Positions 2,510-55,707 of a stretch of 59,803 bases of DNA are shown piece after piece. Within the stretch, counting starts at the first letter, position 1; every line of letters begins with the position of its first letter. A program made the translations under genes and the position numbers. Origin of the DNA: a virus; IMG/VR virus record IMGVR_UViG_3300008261_000020, positions 1 to 59,803 of that record; one strand, 5' to 3'. The notes below the pieces were generated by a model, which was not told the DNA's origin, ran no database searches, and saw only the letters and a list, made by a program, of their open reading frames with translations.

Positions 2510-3932
2510 AAGAATACCGGGATATAGTAATGAGGATATGGTTGAATACTGCGAGACTCTTAAGAGGATTATACTATCCACTAAGGAGGTCAAGGTGGGC
2601 AGGGGTAAAGCCATTGAAACAATAAAAGTATCCAAATATGGAAACGACCCTGATGTTGTAAAGAATATTTTAGATAGTTGCGAATATTATAAATCACCTA
2701 AGATGGAGTTCAGAGATTATCAGATTGATATAATAAAGAAAGGTAAGAAGCTATTGCTTCAACACCGATTCCTATACCTTGCCATGGAGGTGAGGACGGG
2801 TAAAACCCTGACAAGCCTTGGAATATTAGACGGGATTGAGTTGGAGCATGTCTTGTTTGTTACAAAGAAGAAAGCCATCGGAAGTATCGAAGATGATTAT
2901 GAGATGCTCAAACCTTCTTATCAGTTGACCGTAATCAATTATGAAAGCCTTCACATTGTAATGAATGACCAAGTATGGGACGCTGTTATCTTGGACGAGG
3001 CTCATTCATTGGGAGCGTTTGCTAAGCCAAGTGCAAGGGCTGAACTTGTAAGAGATATTCTATGGAACGTAAACCCATTTGTTATTCTACTGAGTGGTAC
3101 ACCAACACCCGAGAGTTATTCTCAGATGTACCATCAGGTATATGGCATCAGGAACAATCCGTTCAGAGAGTTCAGAAGCTTCTACAAGTTTGCCGAGAAG
3201 CACGTAAAGGTTAAGCAGAAGAAAATAAATGGGCTGTACATGAACGACTACAGCAAGGGACTTGATAGTATCATTGAGGCTATGGCTCCTTATACCATCA
3301 GCTACACGCAACAAGAAGCGGGGTTCGTAACTAAAACAATTGAGGAGGTTATTGAGGTAGAGCTAAAGCCAAGCACCATTCAGCTTATAAACAGACTGAA
3401 GAAAGACTTAGTTGTGGAAGGTAAGAACGAGGTGATACTTGCGGACACCCCCGCAAAGTTGATGATGAAGGTGCATCAGTTGTGTAGCGGAACGATTAAG
3501 TTTGAGAGTGGTAATAGCATGGTGCTTGACACCACCAAGGCAGACTTTATTAAGGAGCACTTTGCAGGTTGTAAGATTGGAATCTTTTATAAGTTCAAAG
3601 AAGAACTTGAAGCACTTCGTCAAGTATTTGGTACAGAAAACTTGACAACTGAGCTTAGTGTCTTTGAAGACACTGACAAGAACATAGCACTACAGATTGT
3701 GTCAGGTAGGGAAGGCATCAGCCTGAAGCAAGCCGACTACCTTGTATACTACAACATTGACTTCAGTGCTACAAGTTATTGGCAAAGCAAGGACAGAATG
3801 ACTACAAAAGATAGACAATTTAACCAAGTTTTTTGGATATTTGCAAAGGATGGAATAGAGTATGACATATATAAAGCAGTAACCAAGAAGAAAGATTATA
3901 CTTTAAAACATTTTGAAAAAACATTTTTATGA
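2502..3932 (+). CDS. SNF2/DEAD-like superfamily 2 helicase
   Basis: A 476-residue SF2 helicase/translocase. After about 70 leading residues, FRDYQIDII (Q-like motif) precedes motif I EVRTGKT (about 95), motif II LDEAH (about 166) and motif III LSGTPTP (about 200). The C-terminal lobe has VSGREGISL and the motif VI-like KDRMTTKDR, where the second Arg of the usual QxxxRxxR is less clear. Phage SNF2-like helicases of this size often sit beside primase genes and are thought to remodel replication or recombination intermediates. The start overlaps the stop of the primase-helicase gene, and the stop overlaps the next ATG. One copy of the 16-bp near-palindrome lies in frame near residue 386 (SVFEDT). 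Confidence 0.85.
   Translation: MIERIPGYSNEDMVEYCETLKRIILSTKEVKVGRGKAIETIKVSKYGNDPDVVKNILDSCEYYKSPKMEFRDYQIDIIKKGKKLLLQHRFLYLAMEVRTGKTLTSLGILDGIELEHVLFVTKKKAIGSIEDDYEMLKPSYQLTVINYESLHIVMNDQVWDAVILDEAHSLGAFAKPSARAELVRDILWNVNPFVILLSGTPTPESYSQMYHQVYGIRNNPFREFRSFYKFAEKHVKVKQKKINGLYMNDYSKGLDSIIEAMAPYTISYTQQEAGFVTKTIEEVIEVELKPSTIQLINRLKKDLVVEGKNEVILADTPAKLMMKVHQLCSGTIKFESGNSMVLDTTKADFIKEHFAGCKIGIFYKFKEELEALRQVFGTENLTTELSVFEDTDKNIALQIVSGREGISLKQADYLVYYNIDFSATSYWQSKDRMTTKDRQFNQVFWIFAKDGIEYDIYKAVTKKKDYTLKHFEKTFL
3658..3673 (+). repeat. 16-bp near-palindrome GTGTCTT-TG-AAGACAC, copy 1
   Basis: GTGTCTTTGAAGACAC lies inside the SF2 helicase gene and encodes VFEDT on the sense strand. Immediate flanks extend the dyad by one pair (A...T). 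It is one of 13 copies in the window. Confidence 0.8.
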
Positions 3933-17100: not shown

Positions 17101-17435
17101 GTCTCGTCTATTGGGGCAACAGGCTTAGTAGGTTCGGGTGATACCGATGGACCAACTGCCGAAGGAAATTCCGTAAAATCTTGTACTTTTTCTGCGGGTA
17201 GTGGACCGACTTTTTTTTTAACAGGCTCTTCTACTGCAGGTGCTGCTTGAGACAGACCCATCAGTGCCTTATAATCTTCAATAGGTTTCTTGTATCCGTT
17301 CTGTACAAATAGATTGTATGAGTCATCTAAAGCCTGCGTGTTTGAGGCAATTAGTTTTTTGAATTCATCTATCGACTTGTTGTACCCGTTCTGTACAAAA
17401 AGATTATATGAGTCTTGTATCGCCTGTTCGTTCAT
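8193..17435 (-). CDS. giant 3080-residue virion-associated/polyvalent protein
   Basis: The largest gene, in the position of phage internal (ejected) virion proteins. Residues 1-60 hold two copies of an SYNLFVQNGYxK(P/S)I(D/E) motif. Residues about 225-320 are Ala/Gly-rich and hydrophobic. The middle is charged and low-complexity (APVVEAAPVVE, AAEKAAAKKPKP). A roughly 95-residue unit (DLDVxNEDNM...RRLRSGAN(D/E)ALLAIPLST) occurs near residues 1138 and 1750. Between them, WYVGANRMANAIA, IAALSPQNDWFNN and TADTHALSAAL resemble actinophage DUF7178, a fold I compare with HhH DNA glycosylases. Near the C-terminus a hydrophobic segment (about 2800) and SFYQKIGQALASAF occur. Two near-palindrome copies both encode VSSKTQEV. 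I infer a virion protein that may enter the cell with DNA. Confidence 0.75.
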   Translation of the reverse strand: MNEQAIQDSYNLFVQNGYNKSIDEFKKLIASNTQALDDSYNLFVQNGYKKPIEDYKALMGLSQAAPAVEEPVKKKVGPLPAEKVQDFTEFPSAVGPSVSPEPTKPVAPIDETPKEKPFFTGKFGAALEVMDLVSPFGVGDFIDDMGRAVDAGRRQGAVVTPSNQLMVSGKYASPETIQKFVTASKAMQNAGPSDEMMNYQKIYEEEGKGIFGVLKGLVKNPGAIPELIMSSYTAMVNPTSLASAGTVVGGAAAGGALFGGAGAAPAAIASAPYAMAAAGTTLETGLTFSELLQDKLNEKGLDFTEENVKKILEDDKALSEIRVKSAARGATIGIIDAMTGRLAGKVGAKMLGNTAASKVKAGLAGGGIEGVGGSVGEAAGRIVAGQPLDVSEIALEGISETPSAAIDIVSEVMKKPVYKVNGENRTEADIEEILRVGTPDDISKMNIEIKNDNKGYNNKIQDVVVTNQIRKEVKEANPDIDEESLNTLVELEKELKKFENNKTQSGKDKAAAIRSQIKTIQENAIQKQAAGEVSVQSGAGVSEEVEEGKPQAEPQVTTTEGVEEVITPEEEVKIKEREELRNKKIEEDYQRSKLSDEVFYAQKRIGSADDVEAAIEEYNKAKKTLEDFDETVRQRRDKIRAKDNLEYIIYDETASSEKYGYQYKELYDQDPRLAALQSSKDLIKWVESGESEKNDIERGRSPEEAKKSSQDLIESLKQDIADLEADLKDNPVVSSKTQEVPEGMATQLNDLVENFTTAYSQAPVGQTTSEKRTSTAKANKAIKKLNDFFGFTFGSRANEEQASKQDALTNIKSLLDPNSPLSQFANITELINAYNSDKRNNVESQLVKDVDTIFGIAPTVSSKTQEVASAVAQGPVKISDKIKEKIKDAVRSIPRRRNGNRRFELFVYTKQGDIVDLSDSIPLDKISNLDKVVNQILGQYKDKLANIDFKYYQEAPGGGEDFDQFTIYKAPVVEAAPVVEAAPVVEEEQYVPITEESVSHDKFTRDNAVDYETDFKTGDNGREYEYISRLSVSLNDEDGNSIGNLVKIVDEDGVVSWNAEDENGTEVGRQDFDTKAEAQKALIEKANKIRKKEFDREAKILAKAAEKEAAKKAKAAEKAAAKKPKPTAPAVPEEGPTAEDIASIDAMLDLDVENEDNMQRVLNALDRGDAAIGRRLRSGANDALLAIPLSTIQIAIKAVRALVKGGMILRDAIRKVAKDNNIPEDKLTEAINRSKEGIVSDLQAEGVGVKLTGQENVVKGQNNPTVKTEKGYKEDYSANDIFDNEHAPNSRVVSVAANLASGQISYNKDGQKIEFKLPYINKSLYQKISSLREEYRNIKGASKQATEQKQKIKKDINKVAKRILSDFTDVMSQNLLALYDTLTPEFIKNSKEWYVGANRMANAIANKYNISVEQVGGIIAALSPQNDWFNNVSVAERTIEVMTKYADTKLTQDIVDKAVEYNSRGGEPSGYANDIADLFKQYGEVSINELNNLGQSTATQAAILRAFDQALNSPKVAMTDPTGAFIGFDKTPVRWNSEAEISKAINIFRNGDVNNINENLGNGNKVRNFYNNIVDPNSKTPYVTADTHALSAALNSPISANDAGGFGLFNGSLEPTYALVKEAYIRASEIAGILPREMQSITWEAQRVGINDKNRTESKKKEIFDYISESRTSKKSAYERATELIARNRSGDPEWGKSGGITTQIISDSIRQGAELRAKQRISSLSNLRGRSEGILGTVDTELGRGIAGGESIDEVLDLDVSNEDNMNVVFNFLDSVDKAITKRLRSGANEALLAIPLSTVQVVIKAAKVLVKGGMKLRDAIRKVAADNNISQDSVKDILNIAPIQDGFNELMGKVDEMIQRQTARGTEQSRMTSNVDTLVRNSEVYQNANDAQKKIMEREARGKMGVSPRRAPSIGRILGALKDITNVSRKDKLKIISEIRKLSKDAANDLAKEIKALADTGKITVKQAANIIARFGKVNMLNEVSVSKFVDYMTKVFNDAEYAQKISEVNSKLKSAKKNIVSKIGIADGLMVPLQKLFSINPTLIPQKYFDRYSELVNMFGERKAVLTLEEKQKVIKDVNEILDEINAEQSQVLELADRMKSSQNKVEEDGKLDYSKTVKSMLDNKEIDEKEADVMMKYQEEVSEEVEPEQESTEEEKQNVIKQINSSKINADDLPTKDERDLAKNLSKLLNSKNLNRLSVRELNNLLKVIDNINNGYIPHYAQLLYERITALDNSAVLDKAISNAKPIPFSNLYARFKSLFTKNKNFSELIRRNPLYYIDQVFGNFNTKEIFNSLFEKAAEAQAKFAFSEKQIAKRLKEAELKVAKSFNMNANKTTMSKYKMMAYLLQREFESNPNNKQVNPASKFLESTIDHIENGKSSFTERDVEMLREIQEKYSNADGQIDAKKLYDSFNSAEKSAIKEISDINDSMRDKAVYTSAIIRGDKISPLTDYVHHYALLDDSQQEDITGASSLNTYSNTLRPSTRAKSLLTRTGKATPLNFDVFAATQRGAKFVLMDYYLTEPIRTARKTINETSRLLKERKADKKQRDIFNAISGAFDEATENLLTNAFMSTSLADDVVDYISKQGYRAVLASIPRFASELTSNVAFATIVAPKDFSTGASMKKFIFSSDAAKAVFNLNSKQMNRLFPNHTLSGKMIDTSVMSDAVGVKGSRAKNDVANKIQQIYNLSLGKYTNAVELTADALISTPDKITMRPVWFGAFTNEFKNLTGTNPDFDKIANNDEAYMSENKENLEKATLVADKKSVLMGATDNAFMGILKGTSKPNQSGFIRAFNRFNNFMTTFLIYEYVTARTGIMAAMKGGQISRKQGVALLGGVTARMVLYTLLVNVLGSAMTGLFVDDEEEDEKSFYQKIGQALASAFSSMILGRDFGNVTKTLVNYGVEKVNQEYLDFLREGEYDPYKDAIQYSVLPIDKQGKPEQILFNMMGPFSPSAKTAYLIAKKALEKPKEEEEAIERSEKEKNIRVPLEFFGNIGMVPLYKDIHKIVNAELYKDLEKTKGTGGKGSSMSKEDMKKYFPDMYNDLYGPGGSLYDVEQMKKEINREQEKIKKQIKEDMYR
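12164..12403 (-). CDS. possible overprinted gene inside the giant gene (79 residues)
   Basis: In the +1 frame of the giant gene, an ORF starting MKEQQNSLQETEVE runs for 79 codons. It reads like a folded protein (LVTQFAKERNYVLNKGLALYLI, then PREFWEQSIPNWVEELPEG), and the DNA here is visibly more C/G-rich than its surroundings, as dual coding could cause. The start follows an A-rich leader (AAAAAATCAGCTT). It could instead be chance or a relic of a fused gene. Confidence 0.3.
   Translation of the reverse strand: MKEQQNSLQETEVETLSGESQEELQLKSLVTQFAKERNYVLNKGLALYLIYGDAPREFWEQSIPNWVEELPEGKALTKS
14843..14858 (+). repeat. 16-bp near-palindrome, copy 2
   Basis: GTGTCTTTGAAGACAC within the giant gene; on the coding (minus) strand it reads GTGTCTTCAAAGACAC and encodes VSSKTQEV. 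Copy 3 lies 381 bp away with the same peptide, so this pair may partly reflect protein duplication. Confidence 0.8.
15224..15239 (+). repeat. 16-bp near-palindrome, copy 3
   Basis: GTGTCTTTGAAGACAC within the giant gene, encoding VSSKTQEV on the minus strand, 381 bp from copy 2 and in the same frame. Confidence 0.8.
15719..15868 (-). CDS. overprinted small basic phage protein (MPFKSKxQ family) inside the giant gene
   Basis: A 49-residue ORF in the +1 frame of the giant gene. Its sequence, MPFKSKQQVKYLYSQEPELA then KKWRKENPKQNLKSLPQKV with a Lys-rich tail, matches the pattern of a very common small phage protein (MPFKSKxQxxYLxxxxPxxAxxWxxKxxxxxxLPxKV). That match makes chance unlikely. An A-rich leader (CATACAAGAAA) precedes the ATG. 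The overlapping giant-protein segment is Glu/Gln/Pro-rich linker, which could tolerate dual coding. Function of the family unknown to me. Confidence 0.5.
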   Translation of the reverse strand: MPFKSKQQVKYLYSQEPELAKKWRKENPKQNLKSLPQKVSKKSSPRKKK

Positions 17436-17451
17436 TATTCAAATTTAAGAA

Positions 17452-19338
17452 TTAATAACCACTAATTCTGTTCTTTATACCTGCATCTTGTTTATTAGAA
17501 GATGATTTACTTTGTTCATCAAATACCCCTGTCTTCATAAGATTGCTTAAGAAAAATGCCTTGTCTTCCATTTTTGCTCCCGGTATATTTGAAAGTAAGA
17601 ATCCTCTAACTTGTTCTAAAGCATTAGGACTTTCAATATCTATCTTATCAGACTTTACACCATCTTTATTTTTAATAACAATATATTCTCCTGATGGGTC
17701 GTATGGTGAACTTACGCTAAATCCTATTGCTTTTAACTTTGGTGCTAAATCCTTTACAGCAGTTTCTTCATCTGTAGTTGAAAAAGACGGTATATTTTCA
17801 GCTACATATTTACCATAAAGTGCACTCGGGTCTTGTGTTCCCGCACGACCTCCACTTATTCCCTCCCAATCAATTCCTTGATTTCCAAATATATCTTTAG
17901 AAAATCTTGAGTATTTTCTTGTGTCGGTAATACCATGTAGCTCTGTTCCAAATGCAGCCCATTCATCTCCTGATACGGTGCGACCTGTCTCATCGTCAAT
18001 AATTTTAAACTCTCTATTTTTAGCCTTATCAGCATATATGAGTTTTACACTTTTACCATCCTTAGTATCAATGTCAATTAAACCTTGAGCTATTGCACGT
18101 GGAGAACCAAGTATACCTTGTTTAGCTGCTGACTTGCCACCTGTTGTTGTAGCTGAATAGAATTGCTGCCAAAGATTAAGTGCATCTTCCTGTTCTTTTT
18201 CCTTGTCTCCTCTCTCATATAAAAATGATGGAGCATATTCCTTACGTGGTTGGAAGAATGGCTCGACCTCAGTCTTCTGCTCAAGCATGCCACGCAATTT
18301 ATTTTTGGTATATTCTTCAGCGTTTTTATATTGCTCTCTACCATTTTCGGTAGACTCAAAGTCAGGCTGAAATATTCCCTTCTTATATGTCCAAAGAACA
18401 AAGTGAGAGCTTGAAGCAGCCTCAGTTTCGTCAGTAGTTACCTGATATGCCTTGCCTGTCTTAGGGTCAACACCACCTGCCCAATCAAAAAGAACTGAAG
18501 ATATATTAAAAGGGTTTGATAATTGAGCTTGCACTATTTTATTCTCAAGACCAATATATGCGTCAACAGCTTGCTGCCCTTCTTGTGCTAACCCTTTCCT
18601 AAGTGTTGGGTCAGTATATTTAGTTAAAAATCCTGCCTGAGTAGAACTACCTGTTTTGCTTACAAATTCTTTAACCACATCTCCCATCAACTTAGACTCA
18701 GCTTCTAATTGGTCATTAAGCTGATACTTATTAATTTTTTCTTTTATTCTATTTCTAAGTTGGTTTACAGTCATATAGTTATTAGAACCCTCAGCAAGAA
18801 CCCTAACACCATCTTTTCCCGTTGTCATCTTACCAACATTGATAGCACCCGTTGTTGGGTTTATTAATGCCTTTGTTTCATTAAGATTAGCAAACCCTTC
18901 AACCATTGCCATGAATTGAGTTTCAGACCCTGAAGAGATTCCATCTGCTCTTCTTTTTTGTTTCTCATCATATTCAGCTTGATATTCTTTGGCAAGATTG
19001 AAAAGATTCTTTGTGCCATCCACTGTGTTTTGACGAATTAAAGCATAGTCTTTTTCTTTTAACTTTCCTGACTTAAACAGTCTGTCAGTCATAAGTCTAT
19101 AGCTTTGCATATCACCTGAAAAGTCAGTCGTCCACTTGTTTACATCATCAGCATTTCCTTGTGGAGCATTTTCTAATTCTTCACCAAACTTACGAGATGC
19201 CTCATCGAGAGCTGCTTTCTTTTTTTCACGTGTCTCTACCTCTTTACTGAGCATGTCAGTAATATCCTTCCCAACTTGGAACCAATTTATTTGGCTATCA
19301 GCCTCCCGCTCAGCATATTTATAAAAAGTTCTTGCCAT
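17452..19338 (-). CDS. hypothetical virion-associated protein (628 aa)
   Basis: 628 residues, hydrophilic and mostly helical with no signal peptide or membrane segment. It starts MARTFYKYAEREADSQINWF and has charged helical stretches at about 30-60 and 120-150. It lies between the giant protein and a 292-residue Ala/Gln-rich protein, which is where podovirus-type genomes encode internal virion (cargo) proteins ejected with DNA. That position is the only functional evidence; I recognise no domain. Confidence 0.7.
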   Translation of the reverse strand: MARTFYKYAEREADSQINWFQVGKDITDMLSKEVETREKKKAALDEASRKFGEELENAPQGNADDVNKWTTDFSGDMQSYRLMTDRLFKSGKLKEKDYALIRQNTVDGTKNLFNLAKEYQAEYDEKQKRRADGISSGSETQFMAMVEGFANLNETKALINPTTGAINVGKMTTGKDGVRVLAEGSNNYMTVNQLRNRIKEKINKYQLNDQLEAESKLMGDVVKEFVSKTGSSTQAGFLTKYTDPTLRKGLAQEGQQAVDAYIGLENKIVQAQLSNPFNISSVLFDWAGGVDPKTGKAYQVTTDETEAASSSHFVLWTYKKGIFQPDFESTENGREQYKNAEEYTKNKLRGMLEQKTEVEPFFQPRKEYAPSFLYERGDKEKEQEDALNLWQQFYSATTTGGKSAAKQGILGSPRAIAQGLIDIDTKDGKSVKLIYADKAKNREFKIIDDETGRTVSGDEWAAFGTELHGITDTRKYSRFSKDIFGNQGIDWEGISGGRAGTQDPSALYGKYVAENIPSFSTTDEETAVKDLAPKLKAIGFSVSSPYDPSGEYIVIKNKDGVKSDKIDIESPNALEQVRGFLLSNIPGAKMEDKAFFLSNLMKTGVFDEQSKSSSNKQDAGIKNRISGY

Positions 19339-49100: not shown

Positions 49101-49339
49101 AGCCTTGTGATGTATATAGGTGTTTTCTCGCCAACATAGGCTCCAACAATATTGTACCCATAATAGTCAATCGCCTCTTCCTCACTCATGTCCCTGCTAA
49201 GCACCTTGATGATTATCTCAGAGTCGTATACTACCCTGCCATCTTTTTCTTCAACACCAATTATCGCCTCGTCCATCCCATCAACCAATAAGGCATCGGG
49301 ATACATCTCAGCTATCTTATCGACTTTACTTTGCGTCAT
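49097..49339 (-). CDS. small conserved phage protein (MYPDALLVDGMDEAI...)
   Basis: 80 residues from the ATG at 49339, which overlaps the end of the GroEL gene in another frame. EMYPDALLVDGMDEAIIGVE, VVYDSEIIIKVLSRDMSEEE and NIVGAYVGEKTPIYI form a pattern widespread in phages and unnamed as far as I know. An upstream start would add unrelated residues encoded inside GroEL. Confidence 0.7.
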   Translation of the reverse strand: MTQSKVDKIAEMYPDALLVDGMDEAIIGVEEKDGRVVYDSEIIIKVLSRDMSEEEAIDYYGYNIVGAYVGEKTPIYITRL

Positions 49340-50927
49340 AGGTTCTTGCCATTGTGATGATAGCGTTAGTTGACAATATTGTCGTAGCAACACTGACTGC
49401 ATTCTGCAAGGCAGAACGAGTGACCTTAAGCGGGTCAACGACACCCATCTTGATTAGGTCCCCAAACTTACCTGTTTTTAAATTATATCCATCACCATCG
49501 TTACTTAATGAGCCATACACCTCACCATACTGAACCCCTGCGTTCTCAAGTATCTGAAGTAATGGTGCACGTAGTGCATTGGAGACTATTCTAACAGCAG
49601 CCTTCTTCTCATCAGACCAACTCTCATCAATTGCAATAAGACTCTCGCTGTATAGTGCCTTACCCGCTCCCGGCAGTATACCTTCCTCTAATGCTGCCCT
49701 TACCGCACATACCGCATCGTCAATCCTATCATACAACTCTTTTTGCTCAAGGTCAGTATTGCCACCCGCAAAGATGACACCAATCCCTCCTGTCAAGGAG
49801 GCAATACGCTCAAGCAAGAAATCTTTGTCAGCCTTCCTCTTGGCAGCCTTGTGTGCGTCCCATAGTTGGGTGACTCGTTCCTGAATTTTGACAGAGTCAA
49901 TCTTCAGGTCGGACTTGAGGATAATGGTCTTATCTTTACTCACTATCACCTTAGCAGCGTGACCTAAGTCAGCGTAAGTAATGTGAGATAAATCGTCTCC
50001 GGTCTTTTCTGAGAAGTAAGTGGCTCCAACGGAGACTGCAAGGTCTTGCATTAACTCGTGTTGCTTATACCCAAAACTTGGCGGTGGTATCGCACATATC
50101 TTCAAGTTGCCTTTCATCACATTCGCAGCCAATGTGTTTACCACATTAACGTGACAAGGAGCAACTATCAAAAGCTTCTTGCCTTCGGTAATGATTGGCT
50201 TCAGTATGTTCTCAATGTTTAGGATGTTCCCTATCTCAATATCAGCTACAAGAATCATAGTGTCCTCAAAGACACACTCATCTTTCTTTTGGTCGTTGAT
50301 AAATAGCGGACTCAAATACCCCCTGTCAATTTTCAATCCCATAGTTGTCTCGGCATAAGTCTCCGAAGTCTGAGACTTCTCTACCGTTACTATACCATTC
50401 TTCCCCACCTCTTTGTATACCTCGGCAATAATCTTTCCCAACTCTTTGTCATTGTTCGCTGATATAGTAGCCACGTCAGTTAAGGTGCTGCCTGAGACCT
50501 TCTTCGAACGTCTCCGGAGGTTCTCCACCACCTTGCCACTTATCTCCACCATGTTGCGTAGCACCTCGGTACGATTATGAGTTGGAAGAAGATGCTCAAC
50601 ACCACCCATCACCAATGCCTCTGTGAGCACAATAGCGGTCGTTGTACCGTCTCCGGCAGCAGTAGCTGTACGGTCGGCTGCCTCCTTCATCATCTTGACA
50701 GAAAGGTTCTCTACGGGGTCTAACAAGTCAACCGCTTTCGCAACAGTTACACCATCCTTGGTGACAGTGATACCATGAGTATGTGTTGGTGATTCTATAA
50801 CTACCGTGTTTCCATTGGGACCCAATGTACTCTTCACAGCATTTGCAATAGCATTAATTCCTTTGATTAGTTTAGACCTACCTTCCTCTCCGAAACGTAA
50901 GTCCTTAGGTGAATATCCGATTTCCAT
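49326..50927 (-). CDS. groEL: chaperonin GroEL homologue
   Basis: 533 residues from the ATG at 50927 (MEIGYSPKDLRFGEEGRSKL). Nucleotide-binding motifs are intact: LGPNGNTVVIE (about 35) and AGDGTTTAIVLTEAL (about 85). Apical residues (GYLSPLFIND, about 199) and the C-terminal equatorial part (ATTILSTNAIITMA) are present. The usual GGM-rich tail is missing and the protein ends ARTYDAK. It probably folds capsid or tail proteins with the GroES gene downstream. A near-palindrome variant lies at 50260. A GTG 21 nt upstream is a possible alternative start. Confidence 0.9.
   Translation of the reverse strand: MEIGYSPKDLRFGEEGRSKLIKGINAIANAVKSTLGPNGNTVVIESPTHTHGITVTKDGVTVAKAVDLLDPVENLSVKMMKEAADRTATAAGDGTTTAIVLTEALVMGGVEHLLPTHNRTEVLRNMVEISGKVVENLRRRSKKVSGSTLTDVATISANNDKELGKIIAEVYKEVGKNGIVTVEKSQTSETYAETTMGLKIDRGYLSPLFINDQKKDECVFEDTMILVADIEIGNILNIENILKPIITEGKKLLIVAPCHVNVVNTLAANVMKGNLKICAIPPPSFGYKQHELMQDLAVSVGATYFSEKTGDDLSHITYADLGHAAKVIVSKDKTIILKSDLKIDSVKIQERVTQLWDAHKAAKRKADKDFLLERIASLTGGIGVIFAGGNTDLEQKELYDRIDDAVCAVRAALEEGILPGAGKALYSESLIAIDESWSDEKKAAVRIVSNALRAPLLQILENAGVQYGEVYGSLSNDGDGYNLKTGKFGDLIKMGVVDPLKVTRSALQNAVSVATTILSTNAIITMARTYDAK
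50260..50275 (+). repeat. 16-bp near-palindrome variant, copy 7
   Basis: GTGTCCTCAAAGACAC in the GroEL gene: one base differs from the CA-centred form. The minus-strand sense reads CVFEDTM. Confidence 0.6.
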
Positions 50928-50950
50928 TTTAGTTAATTTAGTATGCACAA

Positions 50951-50958: not shown

Positions 50959-51012
50959 ATAATAACGAATCAAAAATTCCAAAAATAGTTTTATGACAAT
51001 TTTATCCTTCCC

Positions 51013-51030
51013 TATATATATATATATATT
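51013..51030. repeat. AT-rich TATATA tract
   Basis: A run of alternating TA lies in the 336-bp gap between the GroEL gene and the 66-residue gene. Next to the AATCGAC repeats it could be an easily melted region, but nothing else supports an origin. Confidence 0.35.
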
Positions 51031-51073
51031 TACCTCCTTTTATTATTTATTTCCCATTAGAAAGTAAAGAAAA

Positions 51074-51134
51074 AATCGACATAATCTATCAGTAAGTTGA
51101 ATATCAATAAGTTAGAAAAGAAAAATCGACATAA
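51074..51134. repeat. AATCGACATAA direct repeats (second cluster)
   Basis: AATCGACATAA at 51074-51084 and 51124-51134 match the cluster at 41-97, with similar flanking A-tracts. The stretch 51061-51134 resembles 30-98 overall, suggesting a duplicated regulatory or origin element. Confidence 0.5.
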
Positions 51135-51146
51135 AATCTGTCATCT

Positions 51147-51167
51147 ATTACCTGATTTTCAGGTAAT
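51147..51167. promoter_or_regulatory. perfect 9-bp inverted repeat, possible operator
   Basis: ATTACCTGA-TTT-TCAGGTAAT in the gap between the AATCGAC repeats and a terminator. No gene starts right at it; it could be a repressor operator or a hairpin. Confidence 0.45.
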
Positions 51168-51201
51168 AAAGACAAACTTGGGGTTAGTGTTATAAGCACA
51201 C

Positions 51202-51236
51202 AATAATAAAAACAAAGCCCCTGTAAAGACAGGGGC
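51202..51236 (-). terminator. intrinsic terminator downstream of the 66-aa gene
   Basis: GCCCCTG-TAAAGA-CAGGGGC (51217-51236); on the minus strand it is followed by TTTGTTTTTATT. Placed 28 nt beyond the stop of the 66-residue gene. Confidence 0.7.
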
Positions 51237-51263
51237 AATGAATCACACTTTAACTAACCAAAA

Positions 51264-51464
51264 CTAAAATCTCATTTTCTCTTTAAGGTCTTCCATCATC
51301 TCGGCTTTTTGCATACCAAGAGATACTGCCTCTGACATCATCTGAATCTTCTCAGCCTTCTTCAAATCCTTTTTAATCTGAGCAGCCTGTTGGATTCCTG
51401 TCATACTATTTGGTCTGTTGTTTATAAGACGACCATTCTTAATTGTCAAGTCATTGTATTGCAT
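51264..51464 (-). CDS. small hypothetical protein (66 aa)
   Basis: MQYNDLTIKNGRLINNRPNS followed by a Met/Lys-rich helix. Flanked by its own promoter-like box (51481) and terminator (51217), so it is probably a monocistronic unit. Function unknown. Confidence 0.6.
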   Translation of the reverse strand: MQYNDLTIKNGRLINNRPNSMTGIQQAAQIKKDLKKAEKIQMMSEAVSLGMQKAEMMEDLKEKMRF

Positions 51465-51480
51465 ACTATATAGTTTGGTA

Positions 51481-51488
51481 TAAAGGTA
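51481..51488 (-). promoter_or_regulatory. -7 box upstream of the 66-aa gene
   Basis: TACCTTTA on the minus strand, close to TAnnTTTG, 16 nt from the ATG at 51464. Confidence 0.4.
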
Positions 51489-51971
51489 GGAAAAATTTTA
51501 TTCAGATAATAGTAGTGTGGGGGCTATATACCGGTTCTGCGTGGCGGGACCCGAACCGAAAGTGACTTTTTTTTGAGGGGGTGGGGGTCGCTTTTCGTCC
51601 GACCCTCAGCAAATTTTTGGCTTTTTGCCGTGGCAATTGTCCCCGTCCCCGTTCCCCATCCCGTATTCGCCCCTCCTTTGTTCGTTCTACGTCCCCCGTC
51701 CCGTTCAAGGTCCCACGTAATTCGCCCCCGTTCCCCCGTCTGTAGTGTCTTTGAAGACACAAAGCAAAGAGAGTAAGGAGGCTGACCCCGTCCCTTTTCC
51801 CCCGTGCTTAAACTTTCCGCCCAATTTCCCCACGCTGAAACCCTTTGTTTATCAATACTTTACAAAAATCTTTCCCTATTCAAAAAAATATTTGTAAAAA
51901 AATTTGGTAATGTCAAAAAGTTAGACGAGATTTGTCAAATAATTAATCAATCACTATTAAAATTTTAAACA
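51489..51971. other. non-coding divergent region with a C-rich tract
   Basis: Between two divergent genes. About 51530-51850 is strongly C/T-rich on the plus strand (repeats of CCCCGTCCC and TTCGCCCC types), unlike the rest of the AT-rich genome. It contains one near-palindrome (51745). Minus-strand ORFs here have low-complexity Gly/Thr/Arg sequences and are not convincing. After 51850 the sequence is AT-rich up to the ATG at 51972, where a degenerate -7 box (GAGATTTG) may serve the right-hand operon. No convincing RNA gene was found. Confidence 0.4.
51745..51760 (+). repeat. 16-bp near-palindrome, copy 8
   Basis: GTGTCTTTGAAGACAC in the C-rich non-coding region. Confidence 0.8.
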
Positions 51972-52634
51972 ATGAGCACACAATTACTTGCAATCGAGAC
52001 AGCCTTCCTTCGTCAGTCAGAAGTCGCATCAGCACTGAACTTGAACGAAATCAGGAGCCTTCAAAGGACAATTCAGAACGGACAGAAGAAGAAGTTCGAG
52101 CAGTCTCTTACTCTGAGCCAACACGTAAACAATGCCTTCGAGTGGTTCAAATCTGCTGAGGGTCAAAGGAAGTTAAACGAGGAGGGCATTGCTTGGACCT
52201 CTGAGCAATTCGCTCAAAAAGTATTTGGGTTTCAAAAATCTTATTTCTACAAATTGGTGAAGGTGGCGAACCTTGAGTCTGAGGTGGTTGAAACGTTCAA
52301 AGCGAAATGCGATGAACTTGAGGGTCAAGGATCTGAACCAATTCGCTCAGTGGAAAACCTCCTCAAATTTGCAAGGGCTTCTGAGGAGACGAACAACGAG
52401 GGGGAAAGTGAAGAGGCTGAGGTGGAAACCCGCACTCAAACAATTTTCACTTTGACCTTCAAACATCCCGATGGTAACATCTCGGTGCGAATAGATGAGG
52501 CGGGGCAGATGAAGACAACCAATAACACTACAGAGTTATTGAGTGCAATTAAATTTCTTCAGCACGCTATTGTTGACGCGGTGGGTCGTGAGAATATCGA
52601 GGGATGTCGTGAGTGCGGTGGTATTTACGAATAG
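51972..52634 (+). CDS. hypothetical protein with possible HTH (220 aa)
   Basis: 220 residues. FAQKVFGFQKSYFYKLVKVA (about 77-96) looks like a helix-turn-helix as in phage regulators and KfrA-like proteins. An acidic linker (about 136-157) and a beta-rich C-terminal half (FTLTFKHPDGNISVRID) follow. First gene of the right-hand operon; a near-palindrome and a hammerhead follow its stop. It may regulate this operon. Function unproven. Confidence 0.65.
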   Translation: MSTQLLAIETAFLRQSEVASALNLNEIRSLQRTIQNGQKKKFEQSLTLSQHVNNAFEWFKSAEGQRKLNEEGIAWTSEQFAQKVFGFQKSYFYKLVKVANLESEVVETFKAKCDELEGQGSEPIRSVENLLKFARASEETNNEGESEEAEVETRTQTIFTLTFKHPDGNISVRIDEAGQMKTTNNTTELLSAIKFLQHAIVDAVGRENIEGCRECGGIYE

Positions 52635-52643
52635 TCAAAGGTG

Positions 52644-52659
52644 GTGTCTTCAAAGACAC
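52644..52659 (+). repeat. 16-bp near-palindrome, copy 9
   Basis: GTGTCTTCAAAGACAC between the 220-residue gene and hammerhead 1. Flanks GGTG...CGCC pair, extending the possible RNA hairpin to 9 bp around TTCAAA. Confidence 0.85.
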
Positions 52660-52663
52660 CGCC

Positions 52664-52714
52664 TCCGTCCGAGAGTGATTACTCTCGCTGATGAGTCCAA
52701 TAGGACGAAACGGA
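52664..52714 (+). ncRNA. hammerhead ribozyme-like RNA 1 (type III)
   Basis: Stem III: TCCGT (52664-52668) with ACGGA (52710-52714), including the A15.1-U16.1 pair. Cleavage nucleotide C17 = 52669 (GUC). Stem I: CGAGAGT/ACTCTCG with loop GATT (52670-52687). Core CTGATGA (52688-52694). Stem II: GTCC-AATA-GGAC (52695-52706). GAAA at 52707-52710. All conserved core residues are present. Predicted cut is between 52669 and 52670, 65 nt upstream of the amidoligase ATG, leaving the ribozyme in its leader. Confidence 0.85.
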
Positions 52715-52734
52715 AACCAAAAAAATCTAATCAA

Positions 52735-53622
52735 ATGGAATTTAAAATGCATGGAGCAGGACCAAACAGATGGAATGACATCGTTTCACGTGGTGTGGTT
52801 CAAGGATACCACGACAAGCCTCACCCGATTGATATTTCGGGCGGAGCGAAAGCCTCAGACATTGCAAACCTCAAGAAAGCACAAAGGGGTAACCTTATTG
52901 AGTCTTTCGGTGACTATCGTTCAAGGTTTACCATCGGGTTTGAGGTGGAGAAAAACTCCCTTCATCGTGGAGCGGTGAGAGAGTACGAGCTACTTTGTGG
53001 GTTTGAGCGTGATGGGTCTTGCGGTTACGAAGCGGTTACCCACGTGTTACCCCTTGTTCCTAACTCTCAGTGGAGAACTGCCGTATTCGATATGATGTTC
53101 AAGGCTGAGAAAATTATTTCAGACAATTATAGCCCTTCAAATTCTCAGTGCGGTGGTCACTCAAACATCGGGGTTGAGGGGTTGACGGGTGATGAACTGA
53201 GGGTCCTTATTCGCTCTTACTCGGGCATTGTTATGGCACTCTTTCGCAATAGGTTGAAAAACTCTTTCTGCCGTCACAATTTACGTATGCAGGGGGGCAC
53301 TGAGACGGGCATTTATAACGGGTGGCACTCAAAGTATCAGATGTGTTTGGTAAAGAGCAACATCGTTGAATTTAGGGTGGTGGCTAAGTTTGAATCTGTT
53401 AAGCAGATGATGAGAAGGTACGAATTGTTCTATGAATTGGTGGACTATTCGTTGAACGTGAAGGGGTCGCATAGTGCCTTCCTTAAGCGTATCACCCCCA
53501 TCATCACCTCGATGTACAACGGGGACACTGACAAGGTGAACAAGGTATTAGGGTACGCTAAGCACTTTCAAAAGTTCATCAACGACGGGTCAATCCATCC
53601 CGACATCCGACAATATCTTTAG
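52735..53622 (+). CDS. amidoligase-like enzyme (COOH-NH2 ligase family)
   Basis: 295 residues. FTIGFEVEKN (about 66), FERDGSCGYEAVTHVLPL (about 90-107), CGGHSNIGVEGL (about 139) and SNIVEFRVVAKF (about 208) match the phage-type amidoligase (glutamine synthetase/ATP-grasp-like) pattern in which acidic and His residues bind ATP and magnesium and an Arg in EFR is catalytic. Such enzymes join amino groups to carboxylates, and their genes often neighbour class II glutamine amidotransferase and GGCT genes, as here. The likely target is a peptide, possibly in the cell wall. A longer reading would run through hammerhead 1 and is rejected. Confidence 0.75.
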   Translation: MEFKMHGAGPNRWNDIVSRGVVQGYHDKPHPIDISGGAKASDIANLKKAQRGNLIESFGDYRSRFTIGFEVEKNSLHRGAVREYELLCGFERDGSCGYEAVTHVLPLVPNSQWRTAVFDMMFKAEKIISDNYSPSNSQCGGHSNIGVEGLTGDELRVLIRSYSGIVMALFRNRLKNSFCRHNLRMQGGTETGIYNGWHSKYQMCLVKSNIVEFRVVAKFESVKQMMRRYELFYELVDYSLNVKGSHSAFLKRITPIITSMYNGDTDKVNKVLGYAKHFQKFINDGSIHPDIRQYL

Positions 53623-53649
53623 AGTGCGAAGGGGGTGTCCTTCGGGTGC

Positions 53650-53665
53650 GTGTCTTTAAAGACAC
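53650..53665 (+). repeat. 16-bp palindrome (TTTAAA centre), copy 10
   Basis: GTGTCTTTAAAGACAC between the amidoligase stop and hammerhead 2. GGG and CCC flanks at a few nt distance could extend an RNA hairpin. Confidence 0.8.
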
Positions 53666-53681
53666 CGCCCCGACACTCCCC

Positions 53682-53730
53682 CCGTCTCAGCGTGTGTACG
53701 CTGACTGATGAGCTCAAAAGAGCGAAACGG
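53682..53730 (+). ncRNA. hammerhead ribozyme-like RNA 2 (type III)
   Basis: Stem III: CCGT (53682-53685) with ACGG (53727-53730). C17 = 53686 (GUC). Stem I: TCAGCGT/ACGCTGA with loop GTGT (53687-53704). Core CTGATGA (53705-53711). Stem II: GCTC-AAAA-GAGC (53712-53723). GAAA at 53724-53727. Stems I and II differ in sequence from hammerhead 1 but keep pairing, i.e. covariation. Predicted cut 53686/53687. Confidence 0.85.
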
Positions 53731-53737
53731 AAATAGC

Positions 53738-53750
53738 CACGCGAAGCGTG
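53738..53750 (+). other. small hairpin after hammerhead 2
   Basis: CACGC-GAA-GCGTG. Stable GNA-type triloop hairpin between hammerhead 2 and the next ATG at 53790; could stabilise the cleaved leader. Confidence 0.4.
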
Positions 53751-53789
53751 TCTATCCCCCATCGGAATCACACTTTAAACCAAACCACT

Positions 53790-53876
53790 ATGTTGTTAGC
53801 AATCTTTCTCTTGTCTGTTATCGTATCATTTTTTTTAACCAACGAAATCTTACCTAAAAAAAGCAAACTACTATGA
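53790..53876 (+). CDS. 28-residue single-pass membrane peptide
   Basis: LLAIFLLSVIVSFFLTNEIL then a short basic end. The ATG follows an AAACCAAACCACT leader. Its TGA overlaps the ATG of the next gene (ATGA), supporting coupled translation. Might pair with the lipoprotein encoded next. Confidence 0.5.
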   Translation: MLLAIFLLSVIVSFFLTNEILPKKSKLL

Positions 53877-54028
53877 AACAATCAAATTCACTGAACGTCC
53901 TTTACTTAGTCATCATCCTTTGTATGTTCATCTTTGGGCTCACCTTGACCTCTTGCGGTACGCAAGGGTACGGGTGCAAGGGGAACCAATCTTGGAACAC
54001 TATGGTAAAGCGAATCAACCGAGGTTAA
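53873..54028 (+). CDS. small lipoprotein
   Basis: 51 residues. A hydrophobic signal peptide (LYLVIILCMFIFGLTL) ends in LTSC, a lipobox with Cys28 as the lipidation site, then YGCKGNQSWNTMVKRINRG. The GCKGxxSWxxMVKRINR ending resembles small Bacteroidota lipoproteins I recall from host genomes. Could be an outer-membrane lysis or superinfection factor. Its stop TAA lies in stem I of hammerhead 3. Confidence 0.6.
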   Translation: MKQSNSLNVLYLVIILCMFIFGLTLTSCGTQGYGCKGNQSWNTMVKRINRG

Positions 54029-54077
54029 CTGACGAGTCTTGAGTAGACGAATCGGGGGCATTGCCCCCGACTTAACC
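54023..54077 (+). ncRNA. hammerhead ribozyme-like RNA 3 (type I, variant)
   Basis: Stem I: GGTTAA (54023-54028) with TTAACC (54072-54077). Core CTGACGA (54029-54035; N7 = C is allowed). Stem II: GTCT-TGAGT-AGAC (54036-54048). GAA at 54049-54051. Stem III: T + CGGGGGC-ATT-GCCCCCG + A (54052-54070). C17 = 54071. The normal A15.1-U16.1 pair is U-A here, so the cleavage triplet is GAC and activity may be reduced. The predicted cut leaves 19 nt before the ATG at 54091. Confidence 0.7.
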
Positions 54078-54090
54078 AAACCAAATTACA

Positions 54091-54288
54091 ATGACGCTAA
54101 AAAAATCGTACGCTTTTGACTATGACAAATCACTTGTTGAGTTCTTGAATCAGAAGGGAATCAAGACCATCACCGGTGACGCTGACATCACGCTGATTGA
54201 ACTTGAGGTATTGGGCGGGTACAACGATACCCCGTTCATTGACCTCATCCTTGAGTTCAGTGCGTGGCTGAGGCACAATCAAGGTTAA
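54091..54288 (+). CDS. small hypothetical protein between two hammerheads
   Basis: 65 residues. LKKSYAFDYDKSLVEFLNQK, then KTITGDADITLIELEVLGGY and FIDLILEFSAWLRHNQG. A small alpha/beta fold, unrecognised. Its ATG follows hammerhead 3 by 13 nt and its stop TAA lies in stem I of hammerhead 4. Confidence 0.6.
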   Translation: MTLKKSYAFDYDKSLVEFLNQKGIKTITGDADITLIELEVLGGYNDTPFIDLILEFSAWLRHNQG

Positions 54289-54334
54289 CTGATGAGTCTT
54301 GAATAGACGAATCCCCCTTCGGGGGGACTTAACC
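54283..54334 (+). ncRNA. hammerhead ribozyme-like RNA 4 (type I, variant)
   Basis: Stem I: GGTTAA (54283-54288) with TTAACC (54329-54334). Core CTGATGA (54289-54295). Stem II: GTCT-TGAAT-AGAC (54296-54308). GAA at 54309-54311. Stem III: T + CCCCC-TTCG-GGGGG + A (54312-54327). C17 = 54328. Stem III is entirely different in sequence from hammerhead 3 yet pairs perfectly, and the U15.1-A16.1 swap is repeated. The predicted cut leaves 19 nt before the ATG at 54348. Confidence 0.7.
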
Positions 54335-54347
54335 AAATCAAATCACA

Positions 54348-54503
54348 ATGGAATCAAGCTACCTATTCAAAATCTATTACGACAAAAGGTTCGTCTGTCT
54401 GATGGTTGCCCACACTAAATGGGAAGCAGTTGACAGAGCGTACTTTAAGTACCTCTATTTGAATCCGAATCTGAATCGTAGCAGGTTCAGTGCCAAAAAA
54501 TAA
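54348..54503 (+). CDS. small hypothetical protein (51 aa)
   Basis: MESSYLFKIYYDKRFVCLMV then AHTKWEAVDRAYFKYLYLNP. Compact alpha/beta, basic C-terminus. Leader AACCAAATCAAATCACA follows hammerhead 4. No domain recognised. Confidence 0.6.
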   Translation: MESSYLFKIYYDKRFVCLMVAHTKWEAVDRAYFKYLYLNPNLNRSRFSAKK

Positions 54504-54505
54504 AT

Positions 54506-54536
54506 TTGGCGATGTCGAATTAATGTCGTACCTTTG
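54506..54536 (+). promoter_or_regulatory. promoter for the amidotransferase gene
   Basis: -33 TTG (54506-54508), 20-nt spacer, -7 TACCTTTG (54529-54536). Matches the Bacteroidota TTG-N19/20-TAnnTTTG consensus. Transcription would start near 54543, upstream of a near-palindrome in the leader. Confidence 0.6.
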
Positions 54537-54564
54537 TTTAAATTTAGTTCATTAATCGGGTTCT

Positions 54565-54603: not shown

Positions 54604-55707
54604 ATGTGCGTAATCATTATCAAACAGAAGGGGAAACTGCTACCCAAGGAGGTCGCCAAGACCTCGGGCAGAATCAATCCACACGGGTTGGGAATTATAT
54701 GGTTGGATACCTTTGAGGTTGCCTACCATAAGTCGTCTGAGTACAAGGTATTGGACACAGAGCGTCCGTTCATTGCACACTTTCGTTATGCCACCATTGG
54801 TGCGGTAAACAAGGAGAATACTCATCCGTTCAGATGCGGTGCGAATCGCAACGAATGGCTGATGATGAACGGGACCATCGCTAAGTTGGGTGATGCCAAG
54901 AAGAGTGACTCAAGGGTTCTTGCTGAATCGTTGGGTGACATACCACGTCACACGTGGAAGAAGGAGTTGGAGAAGTACGATAGCAGGTTCGTGACAATCA
55001 ACACACGTAACCGCACGTATCAGATATACAACAGAGAGTTGTGGACACAGAGGGATGGGATATGGTATAGCAAGAACAATGTACTTGAGGATAATTTGGT
55101 TGCCGTGTATGGCACACTGAAGAAGGGGTATAGCAATTACAATCGGTTCCTAACCTCATCCAAGCACGTTGGCAAGGGACACACCGAGGACAAGTACCCG
55201 CTTATCATCAAGGGTTTACCCTACCTTCTTGAGATGAAAGGTATCGGGCACAATGTTGAGGTTGACGTGTTCAAGGTGAGTGATGTTGTGGTGAAGGAGT
55301 TGGACGCACTTGAAGGTCATCCCTTTTGGTATTGCAGAAAGCAGATACCTATCAAGATGAAAGATGGGAGGGTTCTTACGTGTTGGATATACTTTAATCT
55401 TGCCGAGAAGTACAAGGGCGAAGAGGTCCACGAGACATACACTCAGACGTTTAGCTTCATAAGTGAAGCTAAGAGTAAGAAGTGGTGGGAAGAGGATGCT
55501 GAGGAAGTATTGGAGGCTGAGCGTATAATTGGTAAGCAGTTATACCTTGACGAGTTCATTGACGATGATGAGTTCGATGTGAAGAATGAGAAGCCCGTCT
55601 GTATAAATTGTTTTCACGACCTTGAGTTCGATGGGTTCAGTAACTTTCATTGCAGTGGGTGTAATGATTGGTTCTCAGAGAACGAGGTTCTAAAGTATAG
55701 TGCATAG
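54604..55707 (+). CDS. class II glutamine amidotransferase fused to gamma-glutamylcyclotransferase (AIG2-like)
   Basis: 367 residues. The ATG at 54604 puts Cys at residue 2 (MCVIII), the N-terminal nucleophile of class II amidotransferases; GIIWLD, RYATIGAVNKENTHPF and MNGTI support that domain (about 1-160). A GGCT/AIG2 domain follows with the signature VAVYGTLKKGYSNYNRFL (about 165-182) and ALEGHPFWYC. Residues about 332-355 (CINCF...CSGCNDW) form a four-Cys zinc ribbon. With the amidoligase gene upstream this fits a known gene neighbourhood for synthesis or processing of gamma-glutamyl-type peptide bonds. A GTG at 54565 is in frame but would bury the nucleophile. Confidence 0.8.
   Translation: MCVIIIKQKGKLLPKEVAKTSGRINPHGLGIIWLDTFEVAYHKSSEYKVLDTERPFIAHFRYATIGAVNKENTHPFRCGANRNEWLMMNGTIAKLGDAKKSDSRVLAESLGDIPRHTWKKELEKYDSRFVTINTRNRTYQIYNRELWTQRDGIWYSKNNVLEDNLVAVYGTLKKGYSNYNRFLTSSKHVGKGHTEDKYPLIIKGLPYLLEMKGIGHNVEVDVFKVSDVVVKELDALEGHPFWYCRKQIPIKMKDGRVLTCWIYFNLAEKYKGEEVHETYTQTFSFISEAKSKKWWEEDAEEVLEAERIIGKQLYLDEFIDDDEFDVKNEKPVCINCFHDLEFDGFSNFHCSGCNDWFSENEVLKYSA

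Follow-up and report, generated by a model that had tools for sequence, protein, structure and literature searches.

Our analysis revealed an array of hammerhead ribozymes in a phage genome, in which each ribozyme sits between two genes. The window, i.e., the whole stretch of 59,803 nt that was analysed (virus record IMGVR_UViG_3300008261_000020), contains at 52664-52714 what is, judging from its sequence, a genuine and complete type III hammerhead ribozyme, for which cleavage is predicted. Across a phage clade these elements occupy a stereotyped junction, made of the stop codon of the upstream gene, a hairpin, the cleavage site, and a start codon some 20 nt downstream of the ribozyme. We consider it probable that the array cuts a long phage transcript at the gaps between genes, and that this results in separate messages with protected ends. 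Overall, these are ordinary ribozymes in an unusually regular setting, and their role is testable.

Four hammerheads in the window

The descriptor scan of both strands of the window identified exactly four hammerheads, all on the + strand and within 1.7 kb, in the order III, III, I, I. The same scan found none in 60 Markov-randomised windows. The four elements lie between genes, on the gene strand, and the two type III copies flank one gene, at a distance of 1017 nt. The features of the region are the following:

51972..52634, +, upstream ORF, 220 aa, unknown; its stop codon precedes the hairpin by 5 nt; Pfam and PHROG gave no match
52640..52663, +, hairpin immediately upstream of hammerhead 1, GGUGGUGUCUUCAAAGACACCGCC; 10-11-bp fold ending against stem III
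52664..52714, +, hammerhead 1, type III; predicted cleavage 52669/52670; identified by RF00008, covariation and centroid fold
52735..53622, +, downstream ORF, 295 aa, glutamine-synthetase-like fold (predicted); ATG 20 nt past hammerhead 1
53650..53665, +, palindrome GTGTCTTTAAAGACAC, upstream of hammerhead 2; can be prolonged to GGGUG/CGCCC, one C being bulged
53682..53730, +, hammerhead 2, type III; predicted cleavage 53686/53687; RF00008 40.7 bits, E 2e-5
53733..53755, +, hairpin AUAG-C-CACGC-GAA-GCGUG-U-CUAU immediately downstream of hammerhead 2, similar to RiboJ in its arrangement
53790..54028, +, two small ORFs (28 aa, 53790-53876; 51 aa, 53873-54028); the second has its stop codon within hammerhead 3 (stem I)
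54023..54077, +, hammerhead 3, type I, core variant U15.1-A16.1; predicted cleavage 54071/54072; RAGATH-1 19.1 bits
54091..54288, +, ORF, 65 aa; ATG 13 nt past hammerhead 3, stop codon within hammerhead 4 (stem I)
54283..54334, +, hammerhead 4, type I, core variant U15.1-A16.1; predicted cleavage 54328/54329
54348..54503, +, ORF, 51 aa; ATG 13 nt past hammerhead 4

An earlier note, made from the letters of the window, had proposed a type III hammerhead at 52664-52714 with a full core and stems of 7, 4, and 5 bp, and this is confirmed by our reading of the sequence and by the Rfam match (E 1.8e-7). The sequence, UCCGU-C-[CGAGAGU GAUU ACUCUCG]-CUGAUGA-[GUCC AAUA GGAC]-GAA-ACGGA, forms stem I with 7 bp, stem II with 4 bp, and stem III with 5 bp. 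The product boundary that had been suggested, 52669/52670, is right as a predicted site, C17 being base 52669, and the proposal that the ribozyme would stay in the leader of the downstream mRNA after cleavage holds as well. The note had described a single element; the ribozyme is real, but it is one member of an array of four copies, of which three had been overlooked.

In a search of both strands of the window, hammerhead 1 matched positions 1-54 of the Rfam model Hammerhead_3 (RF00008) with 47.9 bits, 0.6 bit below the gathering score of 48.5 bits, which is a curated convention and not a biological feature, and it is therefore missed by standard Rfam annotation. Hammerhead 2, with 40.7 bits, does not reach this score either. 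By the covariance-model check that the earlier note had suggested, hammerhead 1 would be refuted only formally: the score is just below the threshold, the E-value is low, and covariation in relatives is strong. Both type III copies have the core CUGANGA and GAA, an H17 that is not G, and the A15.1-U16.1 pair. The centroid RNA fold of hammerhead 1 contains all three helices, and in its minimum-energy fold stem III faces a competing pairing, favoured over the active fold by 0.2 kcal/mol; hammerhead 2, folded as a single sequence, has a broken stem III. These copies resemble RF00008 by the core CUGAUGA...GAAA, the triplet GUC, the open stem III, and full-model matches (E 1.8e-7 and 2e-5). Unlike the usual members of this family, they lie at gene junctions of a DNA phage, not in viroid or satellite RNA, with a hairpin set against stem III.

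Hammerheads 3 and 4 have a type I core and three helices in type I order, and their minimum-energy folds are exactly the hammerhead, but in both of them the expected A15.1-U16.1 pair is inverted to U-A. Their best Rfam match is RAGATH-1 (RF03152), with 19.1 and 21.5 bits, which do not reach the gathering score of 56.3. A canonical A-U counterpart of hammerhead 4, with a nearly identical stem III, is found in a relative (L125:4159), and the U-A form can thus be seen as a double change that keeps the pair. A natural U15.1-A16.1 hammerhead was reported to self-cleave, with lower efficiency (PMC3088659). Since relatives are canonical and this natural variant is active, if slow, we class hammerheads 3 and 4, on sequence grounds, as core variants and not as canonical type I members. 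They share the inverted pair with the variant of Perreault et al. (2011), but here there are two copies in the one genome, both of type I, and the relatives have the canonical A-U.

Hammerheads in related phages

Relatives were defined as viral loci, found by protein, that encode homologues of the amidoligase-like gene at 52735-53622 (n=56). Hammerheads, from one to four each, occur in 35 of them. On the gene strand, the 56 loci have 86 canonical hammerheads and two with U-A; on the opposite strand they have none, a single hit with a G-C pair having been judged to be a chance match. Both U-A copies come from L123, which is a fragment of the virus of the window. The earlier note had tied the ribozyme specially to the amidoligase gene, and this does not hold: in the relatives a hammerhead precedes the start of the gene in only 6 of 49 loci, and follows its stop, in the position of hammerhead 2, in 30 of 49, which makes this the best conserved position.

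Whole-record searches with our own models covered 29 metagenomic virus records, of which 25 have one to four type III copies, mostly grouped within a few kb, and some have type I copies. Because these models were built partly from window sequences, the window scores they give are circular; the Rfam scores are not. At the Rfam gathering level only one hammerhead in total was found across eight relatives, so that absence from Rfam is uninformative here. Every Elemovirus isolate has a type III copy and a type I copy, and a single type I is present in Cellulophaga phage phi19:3; whole-record model searches found no hammerhead in MW202828, phi13:2, Calle_2, and Gundel_1. The device is not essential, since MW202828 and several Cellulophaga and Tenacibaculum phages do without it. 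The cultured Elemovirus (host Flavobacterium sp. BAL314), with its two types, makes it testable in a real infection. Its hammerheads are unannotated in NC_062741 (16936-19080; L193), where the type III (19026-19078, minus strand) precedes gp62 and the type I (17213-17270, minus strand) is near the annotated start of gp69; this start overlaps the ribozyme, and its annotation may be wrong. A second group of viral contigs, unrelated-looking (L006, L031, L060, L082, and similar ones), also has type III hammerheads, with a UUCG- or GNRA-loop G-C hairpin before them and a Shine-Dalgarno-like AGAAGGGGA after them.

The alignments of these elements show strong covariation, with figures that are inflated because the descriptor required some stem pairing: of the pair cells in the 70 type III sequences of set A1, 97.9% are standard, with a score of 0.726 against at most 0.12 for slid partners, and in 26 type I sequences 100% are paired, with a score of 0.760 against at most 0.10. 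In set A1, double changes affect 12 of 16 pairs and support helices I, II, and III in type III order; the A15.1-U16.1 pair is present in 70/70, in a set whose selection demanded it. Two controls, the core pattern alone and the loop bases, are free of the bias from required pairing. When the core pattern was used alone, leaving stems I and II unconstrained, the stems were formed in 64 of 127 viral matches, against 2 of 118 in bacterial genomes. The matches in bacterial genomes were mostly due to chance and indicated no host. Chance matching as an origin of the window sites was rejected on these figures and on the absence of sites in the 60 randomised windows. Several type III loop bases that lie outside the search constraints are also conserved, U13 and A39 in 33/33 clade sequences and G14, U17, and A37 nearly so, as expected for the predicted contact between loops I and II. 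In type I copies (L161, L162, L042, L131, and others), stem I has 6 bp and hardly varies (GGUUAA/UUAACC), and loop II has 5 nt, mostly with U at both ends.

Layout of the junctions

The upstream ORF ends near the ribozyme in 112 of 117 type III cases, mostly 20-40 nt before it, and in all 26 type I cases, most of them within -1 to +6 of the ribozyme start. In type I copies, including both of those in the window, the UAA stop is often inside stem I (GGUUAA). As this strand often holds the upstream stop, translation of the upstream gene could interfere with folding of the ribozyme. The next start codon follows the ribozyme at a median of 22 nt (type III) or 17 nt (type I). Only 7 of 113 type III and none of 24 type I ribozymes lie inside an ORF, as opposed to 57% of random places.

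No Bacteroidota-type promoter motif was found in the gene gaps of 51000-54500, for a weak motif with about five chance occurrences per strand. The only good one, TTG...TACCTTTG, is at 54506-54541, after the array, and precedes a gamma-glutamyl cyclotransferase / glutamine amidotransferase gene (54604-55707).

Hairpins next to the ribozymes

A near-palindrome had been noticed just 5' of hammerhead 1; it is real and longer than stated, as it is part of a 10-11-bp hairpin that abuts stem III. This hairpin is the palindrome GTGTCTTCAAAGACAC (52644-52659), lengthened to a 10-bp stem. The arrangement is looser at hammerhead 2, with 21 nt between the palindrome and the cut and another hairpin downstream of the ribozyme. 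Of 114 distinct type III sites, 100 have a hairpin with 5 bp or more that ends at most 8 nt from stem III, and 76 have it directly at stem III, with a gap of 0 nt; the corresponding rates are 15% for shuffled sequence and 16% for the regions upstream of other genes. In the clade of the window, it is usually the phage's own repeated palindrome, GTGTCTTYRAAGACAC. In other phage groups, this place is taken by a G-C stem capped by a UUCG or GNRA loop, without palindrome repeat. In type I copies, stem III is itself the hairpin, and contains the phage palindrome in L125, L156, L161, L162, L165, and L169. Hence, the predicted cut falls just 3' of a hairpin in both topologies. By abutting stem III, the hairpin may help it to form by stacking. 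An intrinsic terminator was considered and rejected, because the hairpin is followed by stem III (CCGU...) and not by a U-run.

The 16-bp palindrome GTGTCTTYRAAGACAC has 12 exact copies in the window (at 3658, 14843, 15224, 29450, 36514, 46661, 51745, 52644, 53650, 54565, 56066, and 59396), both in gene gaps and inside genes, and almost no near-misses. Relatives have other versions, GTGTCGTTAACGACAC in MW202828 and GTCTGTTNNAACAGAC in L161/L162. By its sequence pattern, the repeat resembles a site bound by a DNA-binding protein of the phage, possibly as operator or stoperator.

Probable processing of phage messages

The one fixed layout of stop, hairpin, cut site, and start across the clade points to message processing and end protection. 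The cutting of a long transcript into separate messages has its basis in sequence, covariation, strand, junction position, and hairpin coupling, from which we infer transcription across the junction, cutting in the cell, and protection by the ends. Transcription would run through the junction, given that no promoter motif was found in the gaps, and the ribozyme would then fold and cleave itself, as its conservation and the precedent of tandem phage hammerheads suggest. The upstream message would end in the hairpin and a few bases with a 2',3'-cyclic phosphate, and the downstream message would start with a 5'-hydroxyl. Such RNA ends should resist exonucleases and 5'-monophosphate-dependent decay. 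In type III copies the downstream RNA would begin directly with stem I, thus giving a structured 5' end. The benefit would be gene-sized messages of independent stability, in the manner of RiboJ, plus a hairpin on the upstream side. If true, the array would be a natural counterpart of RiboJ and provide parts for synthetic biology. Some observations speak against cutting, namely the U15.1-A16.1 pair in both type I copies and the folds of hammerheads 1 and 2, in which stem III is competed for or broken. More tentatively, hairpin and hammerhead might form a modular cassette that replaces terminator and promoter without any protein, where the type and the core variant (e.g., the slow U15.1-A16.1) would set the completeness of cutting and hence the relative expression of the neighbouring genes.

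Parts of this picture are already known, i.e., the existence of phage hammerheads, the presence of several per single gene, and the idea of message processing (PMC3088659). Tandem hammerheads were described around single phage genes, with the proposal that long transcripts are cut into gene-length mRNAs; activity was found in vitro and, for one array, in E. coli as well, and a transcript 5' end of HF1/HF2 maps to the hammerhead site (PMC3088659). Conversely, 4 of 18 consensus-fitting hammerheads were inactive when assayed by Perreault et al. (PMC3088659). Compared with the arrays of Perreault et al. (2011), those studied here have a fixed stop-hairpin-ribozyme-start layout, clade-wide, and an adjoining hairpin that is not described in the searched text of that paper (PMC3088659). 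The new parts are the hairpin-ribozyme cassette and the cultured relatives (Elemovirus) with both hammerhead types. In a search of the open-access literature we found no report of hammerheads in Bacteroidota or Flavobacterium-type phages, nor of a hairpin-hammerhead cassette, and a paper on theta ribozymes in gut phages is silent on hammerheads. A review of 2017 regarded the role of hammerheads in prokaryotes and their phages as an open question (PMC6155905).

The ribozymes might instead act only as leader elements, insulating each gene from its context as RiboJ does. Each gene would then have its own promoter, and the ribozyme would trim a variable 5' leader. RiboJ is made of the sTRSV hammerhead and a hairpin, and in a leader it increases the transcript level about 2-fold and protein 2-10-fold (PMC6206723). 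The likeness lies in a leader hammerhead near the ribosome-binding region and, for hammerhead 2, in the hairpin that follows it, and the position of the window ribozymes relative to the downstream start codons fits such an insulator. Furthermore, the Elemovirus type III lies before gp62, with which a leftward operon begins, and is thus promoter-proximal. Unlike RiboJ, the window array is natural, between genes, and has a constant hairpin upstream, and this hairpin fills the gap from stop to ribozyme. Neither is there a promoter motif in the gaps of 51000-54500, where the good site, at 54506, comes only after the array, for a motif with some five chance occurrences per strand. A role restricted to insulation seems rather unlikely to us.

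Another explanation is that the hairpin is a DNA operator, i.e., a phage-specific palindrome that adjoins the ribozyme only because both collect in gene gaps. The 12 copies of the repeat in the window, also inside genes, and its different versions in relatives would fit this. Yet, only the palindromes beside ribozymes are lengthened, by about 4 bp, some of them G-U: they have 3.9 additional pairs on average against 0.9 elsewhere (p 2.5e-14, in related phages whose sites are not fully independent), and palindromes at intergenic sites without ribozyme also have 0.9 extra pairs. Moreover, UUCG and GNRA tetraloop hairpins occupy the same place in groups without palindrome repeat, and stem III of some type I copies incorporates the palindrome. 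The palindrome may well act at the DNA level too, but we find it improbable that the hairpin is nothing else.

The products of cutting could also be circles, if pairs of hammerheads released an RNA segment that is then ligated, as in retrozymes and viroid-like RNAs. This would suit the two type III copies 1017 nt apart around one gene. Cleavage ends are substrates for RtcB-type ligases. However, no RtcB was found in the window genome, 12 relatives, and one Elemovirus (14 records, with positive controls), although a host ligase is possible; a search for T4-type ligases (PF09511) had no match anywhere, controls included, and is hence uninformative. The array mixes type III with type I at unequal distances, and circular products of similar arrays were sought by Perreault et al. 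and none was found (PMC3088659), which makes circles very improbable. An inactive sequence, hammerhead-like by decay or by chance, is just as improbable, since the 0.6 bit missing to the Rfam cut-off and the U-A core variant of two copies are set against a flawless core, compensatory changes that affect all three helices in dozens of phages, occurrence on one strand only, and a fixed junction position.

The phage and its genes

The source virus record is 59.8 kb long. The window terminase shares 79.5% identity with that of MW202828 (podovirus-like; the record comes from Manatee Spring), 44.6% with those of cultured Flavobacterium Elemovirus phages, and 30-38% with those of Cellulophaga and Tenacibaculum phages. 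Given these similarities, the host is likely of the Flavobacteriia type, among aquatic Flavobacterium-like bacteria.

The name amidoligase, which the earlier note had given to the product of the gene at 52735-53622, is upheld by fold and not by family. The AlphaFold model of the protein (pLDDT 88.8) has glutamine synthetases as best Foldseek match (E 5e-4), and its comparison with the carboxylate-amine ligase YbdK by VIA gave a Z of 9.2, only moderately above chance matches, with an rmsd of 4.1 Å over 195 residues. Pfam has no useful match in 28 homologues. We regard amidoligase-like as a fair name for a product with this putative activity. Upstream of the array, the ORF at 49326-50948 (540 aa) resembles a phage-encoded GroEL chaperonin, and MW202828 has an annotated groeL at the corresponding place.
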